From the NCBI RefSeq assembly GCF_900172345.1, contig NZ_FWFY01000002.1:124001-188000 (forward strand): a stretch of 64,000 bases of DNA. The letters run 5' to 3'. Position 1 is the first letter of the stretch. Each line of letters starts with the position of its first letter. The position numbers were made by a program, and so were the translations under genes. Shown here piece after piece: positions 35,116 through 62,076 of the stretch. The DNA is from Limimaricola soesokkakensis (GTDB lineage: Bacteria > Pseudomonadota > Alphaproteobacteria > Rhodobacterales > Rhodobacteraceae). A model generated the notes under the pieces. It worked only from the letters and a program-made list of their open reading frames with translations, ran no database searches and was not told where the DNA came from.

Positions 35116-35140
35116 GGAACGAGACGCCGTCGCAACCGTT
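35116..35140 (+). promoter_or_regulatory. predicted EcfG (general stress sigma) promoter for the chaplin-like gene
   Basis: GGAAC at 35116-35120 and CGTT at 35137-35140 are separated by exactly 16 nt, matching the alphaproteobacterial EcfG consensus GGAAC-N16-CGTT. The expected start of transcription is about 70-80 nt before the ATG at 35220. The rest of 34983-35219 has no gene; a 14-bp palindrome GCCAAGG-CCTTGGC lies at 35052-35065. Confidence 0.6.
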
Positions 35141-35219: not shown

Positions 35220-35870
35220 ATGTTCATGAAGTCCAAGAGTCTCGTCGCCGCCGCTGCCCTCACCGTCGCCGCGTCGGGTGCCTTTGCCCAGGGCCAGGAG
35301 GGCCTCGTCAACGTATCCGTGGACGACAACACCGTGCAGGTGCCGGTGAGCGTCGCGGCCAATGCCTGCGATCTCGACGTCAACGTGCTGTCCGGCCAGT
35401 TCGTGGGCTCCGACAAGACCGCCTGCGAAATCGATCAGGAAACCGCTGCCGCGAACGGCATCGATACCGGCTCGAATGGCGGGTCGGGCAACGGCCAGCA
35501 GGAAGGCCTCGTCAACCTCTCGGTCGATGGCAACACCGTTCAGGTGCCGGTGGGCGTGGCCGCCAATGTCTGCGACGTCGACGCCAACGTGATCGCCCAG
35601 CAGATCAAGGGCACCGACGAGAGCGCCTGCGAGATCGATCAGGAGACCGCCGCCGAGAACGGCATCGACACCGCGGGCCTGAGTGACAGTGACATGACCA
35701 ACGCAACGGATGCGGCCGAGGACGCGGCGGAGAACACGGTGGAGAACGCCGAGGAAGCCGCCGAGAACACGGTCGAGGCTGGCGAGAACGCCCTCGATAA
35801 CGTCGAGGAAACCGCCGAGGATGCGCAGGACGACCTCGAGGAGACCGTCGAGGACGCGACCGACAGCTGA
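35220..35870 (+). CDS. secreted protein with two chaplin-like repeats and an acidic Ala/Glu-rich tail
   Basis: A 216-residue protein. A signal peptide (1-23, ending SGAFA) is followed by two 58-residue repeats, 26-83 and 94-151. Each repeat has the frame QEGLVN-x-SVD-x-NTVQVPV, then AAN-x-C, an 18-residue gap and a second Cys (Cys50/Cys69; Cys118/Cys137). The NTVQVPV...N-x-C pattern resembles Streptomyces chaplin domains by eye. Residues 152-216 are Glu/Asp/Ala-rich, LEA-like and probably helical. AAAGGA lies 6 nt before ATG 35220; ATG 35226 is an alternative. It has its own EcfG-type promoter and terminator. A surface or stress-protective role is inferred. Confidence 0.8.
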   Translation: MFMKSKSLVAAAALTVAASGAFAQGQEGLVNVSVDDNTVQVPVSVAANACDLDVNVLSGQFVGSDKTACEIDQETAAANGIDTGSNGGSGNGQQEGLVNLSVDGNTVQVPVGVAANVCDVDANVIAQQIKGTDESACEIDQETAAENGIDTAGLSDSDMTNATDAAEDAAENTVENAEEAAENTVEAGENALDNVEETAEDAQDDLEETVEDATDS

Positions 35871-35893
35871 TCCGTACAGTACGACCTCAAGGG

Positions 35894-35925
35894 AGCGTCC
35901 GGCCACGGGCCGGACGCTTTCTTTT
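35894..35925 (+). terminator. intrinsic terminator after the chaplin-like gene
   Basis: A perfect 11-bp stem AGCGTCCGGCC / GGCCGGACGCT with loop ACG (35894-35918) is followed by TTCTTTT. It lies 24 nt after the stop at 35870 and would insulate the gene from what follows. Confidence 0.85.
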
Positions 35926-36041: not shown

Positions 36042-36482
36042 ATGGCCGACCATCTCGACACTCTCAAGAAACTGCATACCCGCGTCATCGACAGCCGTGA
36101 CGGCTACAAGCGCTCGCGCGAGGAAGTGAAGGACGAGCGCGGCTTCGTCGGATTCTTCGACCGCCGCATCGCCGAGCGCGAGCAGTTCCACACCGTGATC
36201 CATCGTCAGCTTGGCGCCGAGGGCGTCGAGGTGAGCGAGAGCGGCTCCACCGCCGCCGCCGCGCATCGTGGTTGGCTGTCTCTTAAGGATTCGCTGACCG
36301 GCGACGACGAGGCGGTCTATGACGAGATCATCAACGGCGAAGAGCAGCTCCTGAAGCTCTATGACGAGGCGATCGAGGCCACCGCCGGCAAGCCGGAATG
36401 GTCCTTCCTCGCCGCCCAGCGTGCCGATGTCGAAAAGGCGCTGAGCGAGGCGCGCTCCGAAAAGATGCGCCACGCCGCCTGA
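36042..36482 (+). CDS. PA2169/DUF2383 family four-helix-bundle protein
   Basis: A 146-residue soluble, highly charged helical protein ([20 protein letters not shown] at the N-terminus, then [32 protein letters not shown] and [13 protein letters not shown]). The spacing of these helices matches the ferritin-like DUF2383/PA2169 family, often linked to stress. GGAGG 5 nt before ATG 36042 decides the start over the ATG at 36030. The gene has its own EcfG-like promoter and a terminator. Confidence 0.82.
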
Positions 36483-61955: not shown

Positions 61956-62076
61956 GCGGCGAAGCTAAGCCGATCCGCGGTGCCGGAAACAGCGGCATCG
62001 CGCCGCAATGCATCGGAAACAAAAAACCTCACCTGCCGGAACCACTTGATCTGCTCCGGCGTTGACAAGTTTGCTG

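Follow-up and report, generated by a model that had tools for sequence, protein, structure and literature searches.

A probably exported, distantly chaplin-like two-repeat protein behind an EcfG-type promoter-like site in Limimaricola soesokkakensis

Can a protein of a Gram-negative bacterium carry a chaplin-like core, and what might it do there? The question is raised by one gene in a 64,000-nucleotide stretch of contig NZ_FWFY01000002.1 of the alphaproteobacterium Limimaricola soesokkakensis (hereafter the window). An earlier note, made from the letters alone, had proposed that this gene encodes a secreted protein with two repeats resembling those of chaplins, the amyloid surface proteins of Streptomyces, and an acidic tail resembling LEA proteins. 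In the available part of PMC4255298, chaplins are described only from Actinobacteria and presumed to have been gained by gene transfer. Our search of the open-access literature found no description of chaplins or chaplin-like proteins in Proteobacteria; Pfam or UniProt may list some.

The gene, its repeats and its periodic tail

The features of the locus are collected in Table 1. The start codon is preceded by a GGAGG-like ribosome site, and the strong hairpin with a T-rich run behind the stop codon suggests that the gene is probably transcribed alone; a simple terminator scan listed none at this place. Its neighbours are, by Pfam, a DUF2062 gene, pdxJ and the gene of a DUF2383 protein and, by reading of the translations, relA/spoT upstream and acpS, an MFS transporter gene, lepB, rnc and era downstream. 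The DUF2383 neighbour (window 36042-36482, downstream of the gene) is a PA2169-type four-helix-bundle protein; a protein of this type was read likewise downstream in locus L014, and in Oceanicola granulosus a different small protein, whose start resembles a signal peptide, stands there instead. When the gene was compared with four orthologues (L014, L016, L017 and L018), dN/dS was 0.09-0.19 in repeat 1 and 0.30-0.61 in repeat 2. Both repeats are under purifying selection, and with these low ratios the open reading frame behaves as a real, selected gene.

Table 1. Positions of the chaplin-like gene, its parts and related features (window coordinates unless a locus is named)
Feature	Position	Strand	Basis or remark
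EcfG-type promoter-like site GGAAC-N16-CGTT	35116..35140	+	exact match, ~80 nt before start codon
Chaplin-like two-repeat gene, 216 aa	35220..35870	+	ORF; ATG start; probably exported product
Probable Sec signal peptide, 23 aa, ending AFA before Q	35220..35288	+	judged by eye
Chaplin-like repeat 1, residues 26-83, Cys50 and Cys69	35295..35468	+	DNA repeat, HMM, hhalign
Chaplin-like repeat 2, residues 94-151, Cys118 and Cys137	35499..35672	+	Pfam, DNA repeat, HMM, hhalign
Acidic tail, five 11-residue repeats, residues 162-216	35703..35867	+	lag-11 identity; 11-mer division by eye
Terminator-like hairpin and T-rich run	35889..35923	+	~18 nt past stop; fold z -4.33, 0/200 shuffles
Adjacent single-repeat pair	L010:602-1956, contig C20 ~146-147 kb	-	long acidic tails

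The 216-residue protein begins with MFMKSKSLVAAAALTVAASGAFA, judged by eye to be a signal peptide followed by Q, and no lipobox was seen in it on reading. The two 58-residue repeats of the earlier note are exactly the residues delimited by a direct DNA repeat (35295-35469 and 35499-35673, 82% identity, spacing 204 nt). NTVQVPV, named there as their core, is present in both; the two Cys of each (50/69 and 118/137) can be read from the translation, and the pair is kept in all 13 family repeats of alignment A4. The acidic tail was likewise as described (residues 152-216, net charge -24) and could be refined to an 11-residue repeat. The mature protein has a net charge of -43, and the eight two-repeat proteins of the family range from -20 to -48. 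At the DNA level repeat 2 is closer to repeat 1 in L. soesokkakensis (81%) than in five relatives (63-75%), and both repeats end in DQETAA, as they do in a genome of another genus, G057; this likeness may be ancestral or due to partial gene conversion. No solved structure matched either of our profiles at E<=1. Two structure models had low confidence (pLDDT 35 and 55), not good enough for comparing folds, and the two strands that both draw over about LVNVSVDDNTVQVPVSV are not to be relied on.

By eye, the tail divides into five 11-mers (ATDAAEDAAEN, TVENAEEAAEN, TVEAGENALDN, VEETAEDAQDD and LEETVEDATDS), the fifth ending at the last residue of the protein. Identity at lag 11 is 0.44, a value reached by 0 of 2000 shuffles, and spacings of 33 nt in the DNA repeat listing agree with units of this length. 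The period recurs in all seven tailed orthologues, with lag-11 identities of 0.43-0.65: in six orthologues none of the 2000 shuffles reached the observed value and in L006 p was 0.0005, while correction for all lags from 3 to 25 gave 0.03 in L006 and 0.0025 in L018. Lag 11 had the top identity in six of the seven (lag 22 being level in L004) and was the top hydropathy lag in four. The tails are written in A, E and D in the L. soesokkakensis protein, L003, L008 and L018, and in T, D, A and V in L004-L006; L003, nearly identical to the L. soesokkakensis protein, is counted separately in the family sets. A period that is kept while the letters are not is as expected for an amphipathic helix. The G057 protein (L007) is without the 11-residue tail, and no 11-residue period was found in the tails of two paralogues on contig C20, described below.

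A rare family and its relation to chaplins

Matches to the gene were found in seven of 147 related genomes, L. soesokkakensis included: six belong to the genus and one, G057, to another genus. Two of the eight Limimaricola genomes searched, G003 (92% complete) and G005, gave no match. Among named contigs there were six loci, in five Limimaricola records and in O. granulosus, the closest being that of Limimaricola sp. G21655-S1 (99% over a 160-residue query). The position behind pdxJ was seen in both loci read for synteny, L014 and L018 of O. granulosus; the G057 copy sits elsewhere. In a profile search of 385 genomes of the class only L. soesokkakensis itself matched, and among 394 genomes of the family six did at E<=0.01, of which three were opened and rejected, leaving L. 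soesokkakensis, G057 and G558. The last encodes a single-repeat relative of 107 residues. Contig C20 of L. soesokkakensis carries two further relatives side by side (Table 1), each with a single repeat and a long acidic, Pro-containing tail. The stop and start codons of this pair appear to overlap (TGATG), and upstream of it a gene encodes a small membrane protein whose motifs are SPW-like. As judged from these searches, the family is rare and patchy and occurs in two-repeat and single-repeat forms.

Several candidate relatives were discarded when their frames were read: L031 looks like an enoyl-CoA hydratase, and L044-L046, L021-L024 and L049 are unrelated. Single-repeat relatives, expected to be widespread in Alphaproteobacteria, did not prove so in the class and family searches. 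A mobile origin of the family was also considered and dropped, there being no match in plasmids, phages or viral contigs; PHROGs offered no family for the three proteins scanned.

The best Pfam match of the window protein is ChpA-C (PF03777), in two stretches, with 19.6 bits against a cut-off of 21 (E 8.4e-4). All three two-repeat orthologues scanned passed this cut-off (33.4, 28.2 and 28.0 bits, whole-protein scores); of the single-repeat relatives, one C20 paralogue scored 14.2 bits, and the other paralogue and L043 had no match. When ten whole genomes were searched, all 11 ChpA-C matches at E<=0.1 fell in family genes and none in the genomes G003, G005 and G558, and in this mode the cut-off was passed by only one genome of the ten. 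Matches at E<=0.1 that stay below the cut-off also came from two control genomes out of 14, E. coli and Caulobacter, and in four of the 385 class genomes unrelated frames scored 18.3-20.1 bits. Taken singly, a repeat thus has a Pfam score no better than noise, and the argument rests on the paired repeats, the orthologues and a two-way test.

For this test, a chaplin HMM without any proteobacterial sequence was built from 13 domains encoded on plasmid records of Streptomyces, Embleya and one more member of the Streptomycetaceae. It gave 22.9-35.6 bits for all eight two-repeat proteins, two of which, those of L. soesokkakensis and L003, are nearly identical; the best decoy over this set, with 500 shuffles and the reverse (501 decoys) per protein, reached 10.2 bits. 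The C20 paralogues scored 10.7 and 10.2 bits and L043 was unlisted, with decoy maxima of 4.4 (L010a), 5.2 (L010b) and 7.4 (L043). Among the 796 ORFs of the window, the chaplin-like gene was the sole match at E<=10. In the reverse direction, an HMM of the 13 family repeats was run against the 1,879 ORFs of 14 Streptomycetaceae loci that had been chosen because they carry chaplins or rodlins and of which some overlap: 18 ORFs were listed at E<=50, the last at E 15, all chaplin-bearing, three being second copies from overlapping loci. Profile alignment by hhalign related the two-repeat profile to chaplins with 93.9% probability (score 34.4); 300 column shuffles stayed at or below 21.4 (43.5%) and the reversed alignment gave 13.4. 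For the single-repeat set the probability was 65.5% (score 25.4, shuffles at or below 17.5). Rodlins, which a DINVL string had suggested as relatives, were rejected (hhalign 0.8%; the rodlin HMM listed only L043, at E 610). One of the Streptomyces plasmid proteins (L058:714-2150) has a long, extracellular-looking region ahead of its chaplin domain.

The shared core can be described closely. All 13 family repeats have P-x5-N-x-C, against 12 of the 13 chaplin domains, with the same counts for two Cys per domain, and the distance from Cys to Cys is 17-18 residues in both. Chaplin hallmarks, as given in parts of PMC7766987 and PMC5618241, are the chaplin domain, strong hydrophobicity, three GN motifs and two Cys. 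Three conserved GN motifs were not found in the family, its 13 repeats having 0-2 each vs 3-4 in the 13 chaplin domains, and none of 11 family proteins has a sortase-like motif. Comparing whole repeats of 53-54 residues with chaplin domain excerpts of 41 residues, mean charge was -7.5 vs -0.3, mean GRAVY 0.20 (-0.02 to 0.47) vs 0.52 (0.07 to 0.90), with overlapping ranges, and the share of hydrophobic residues 0.46 vs 0.43. Of the chaplin link proposed earlier, a remote relation of the core thus stands, by HMMs in both directions, hhalign and the orthologues, while the window protein itself remains below the family threshold (19.6 vs 21). Because the hhalign alignment covers only about 25 columns, and because GN motifs and a sortase signal are missing, we call the protein distantly chaplin-like and not a chaplin: its core is probably a distant relation of the chaplin core.

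An EcfG-type site and the general stress response

Upstream of the gene lies a site of the EcfG type. Sources seen in part give the EcfG consensus as GGAAC-N16-CGTT in Rhizobium etli (PMC3892343) and GGAAC-N17-20-GTT in Sphingomonas melonis (PMC6599016), and among the regulon members listed in the latter are a small protein predicted to be secreted and many hypothetical ones. Allowing one mismatch, we found a site within 200 nt upstream of every one of the ten family genes tested, exact in five; the consensus had been spotted by eye in the upstream alignment of the gene, and three distant upstream regions had also been viewed, before this count was made. The ten are the L. soesokkakensis gene, L013-L018, L007, L010a and L043, leaving aside the second C20 gene and the pair copies of G007, and as they represent four genomic settings they are not ten independent events. 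In all six orthologues from named contigs the sites stand at a like distance and align; before all three family genes in other settings they stand at other positions. In controls on the ten upstream regions, 2.8-6.2% of shuffles had a site, and the reversed pattern occurred in none of the ten. Over the whole window the count is two, as many as in 12 of 100 shuffles and so not unusual; the second is an exact GGAAC-N17-CGTT at 62038-62063. Upstream of the first gene of the C20 pair the site reads GGAAC-N17-GGTT. Exact sites number 73 in the whole genome, where the reversed pattern occurs 38 times.

The regulators are also at hand. PhyR, NepR (both by Pfam), an ECF sigma factor and an HWE/HisKA_2 kinase occur together in the L. 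soesokkakensis genome, where the sigma factor is taken as EcfG from its position behind nepR, and a GGAAC-N17-CGTT site, on the same strand as phyR, immediately precedes the probable start of that gene (L072). NepR was above cut-off in all ten genomes tested, among them two of Limimaricola that lack a match to the chaplin-like gene (one 92% complete). The regulator is thus general, and its regulon would include the chaplin-like gene only as an optional member. A second NepR-like match in L. soesokkakensis (C16:84141-84197, 23.1 bits against a cut-off of 25.7), also present in G007, is perhaps a second anti-sigma factor. The idea that this promoter form is shared with Streptomyces chaplins was rejected, as a site was found within 300 nt at none of nine chaplin starts and at one of five rodlin starts. 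The earlier suggestion of a stress protein gains support from the promoter-like site together with the PhyR-NepR-EcfG module.

Possible roles and comparison with known systems

The computation supports the gene, its repeats, the period of the tail, the promoter-like sites, the EcfG module and the remote profile similarity; the EcfG-type site recurring before the family genes tested and the 11-residue period are new. The explanation that we favour, with about even confidence, is that the gene encodes a probably exported protein with a chaplin-like core that belongs to the alphaproteobacterial general stress response and acts on the envelope. Under stress, PhyR would take NepR off EcfG, and the freed sigma factor would transcribe the gene from the site at 35116-35140. 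The signal peptide would carry the product across the inner membrane, where each repeat may form, by folding or assembly, a beta-rich unit held by disulphides. In most species the tail may form an amphipathic helix or a hydrated stretch, and could act as a spacer, an envelope anchor or a layer holding water or cations, taking the place that the sortase anchor has in long chaplins. Overall, the protein would protect or remodel the envelope when cells face drying, osmotic or similar stress. Export and final location, control by EcfG, the disulphides, assembly and any protective effect are what we infer from these sequence features.

Other readings have to be weighed, which overlap with one another and with the favoured one, so that their probabilities are not meant to add up. 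It may be, with a lower but appreciable probability, that the repeats represent a small periplasmic domain unrelated to chaplins, within a soluble acidic stress protein, and that V-Q-x-P-[VI]...N-x-C is a short convergent motif of two secreted, disulphide-bearing, beta-rich proteins. The shortness of the aligned core would fit such convergence, as would the loss of the GN motifs, the very different charge, the noise-level Pfam score of single repeats and the lack of any linking sequence (among the 385 class genomes only the L. soesokkakensis gene itself, among the 394 family genomes that gene, G057 and G558); yet the specificity of the HMMs in both directions, the column-shuffle control and the motif spacing exceed what short motifs usually yield, and rodlins, also secreted Streptomyces coat proteins with two Cys, score just 0.8%. 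That the repeats are instead mere folded spacers, and that the acidic tail does the work, by binding metal or calcium or by serving hydration, seems improbable: the strong acidity of all eight two-repeat proteins speaks for it, but the repeats are the conserved part of the protein, and the tail differs in sequence and length from protein to protein and is missing from L007.

The proposal of the earlier note, a hydrophobic amyloid surface coat just like that of chaplins, has become quite unlikely. Core similarity and conserved Cys pairs agree with it, as do a hydrophobic share close to that of chaplin domains and the arrangement of two repeats and a hydrophilic tail found in long ChpA-C (~225 aa, by part of PMC5618241). 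Against it stand the net charge and the lower mean hydropathy, the absent sortase-like motif and mostly missing GN motifs, and an outer membrane that must be crossed. A chaplin-like film is possible; the strong negative charge (-43) argues for a hydrated or cation-bridged state and against a hydrophobic film. Returning to the favoured envelope protein of the stress response, a bolder form of it may be stated, which we regard as rather doubtful: the family would be a Gram-negative counterpart of the chaplins, with two-repeat 'long' and single-repeat 'short' proteins, those tested all behind EcfG-like sites, forming a disulphide-linked, cation-dependent envelope layer under general stress, with the acidic 11-residue-repeat helix replacing the sortase anchor. 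More generally, a relative of chaplins in an outer-membrane bacterium, apparently linked to the general stress response, would mean that the chaplin core is of greater age or mobility than has been assumed, and that its function needs neither aerial hyphae nor cell-wall sorting. A few stress-regulon candidates also gain a concrete, testable hypothesis.

Known systems share parts of this design. The consensus of group 3 LEA proteins is an 11-residue repeat, and the period, the hydrophilic character and the probable stress setting of the tail studied here are the same; unlike theirs, this tail was read to be without Lys or Arg, and no LEA family profile matched the window protein at E<=1. The tail proposed earlier as LEA-like is so in its period only. 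Rodlins are likewise small secreted coat proteins with two Cys and a DINVL-like string. With EcfG regulon genes of Alphaproteobacteria the gene shares GGAAC-N16-CGTT upstream. Similar in layout are the long chaplins ChpA-C, which have about 225 residues, two domains and a sortase signal (PMC5618241, in the part available). Signal peptide, similar length, hydrophilic linker and tail are common to both, and so are two domains with a VQVPV-x5-N-x-C core and a Cys pair 17-18 residues apart. The family differs in its strong acidity, its Gram-negative host and a tail of 11-residue repeats; and whereas chaplins are reported under BldN (part of PMC4255298), the family gene has an EcfG-type promoter-like site.
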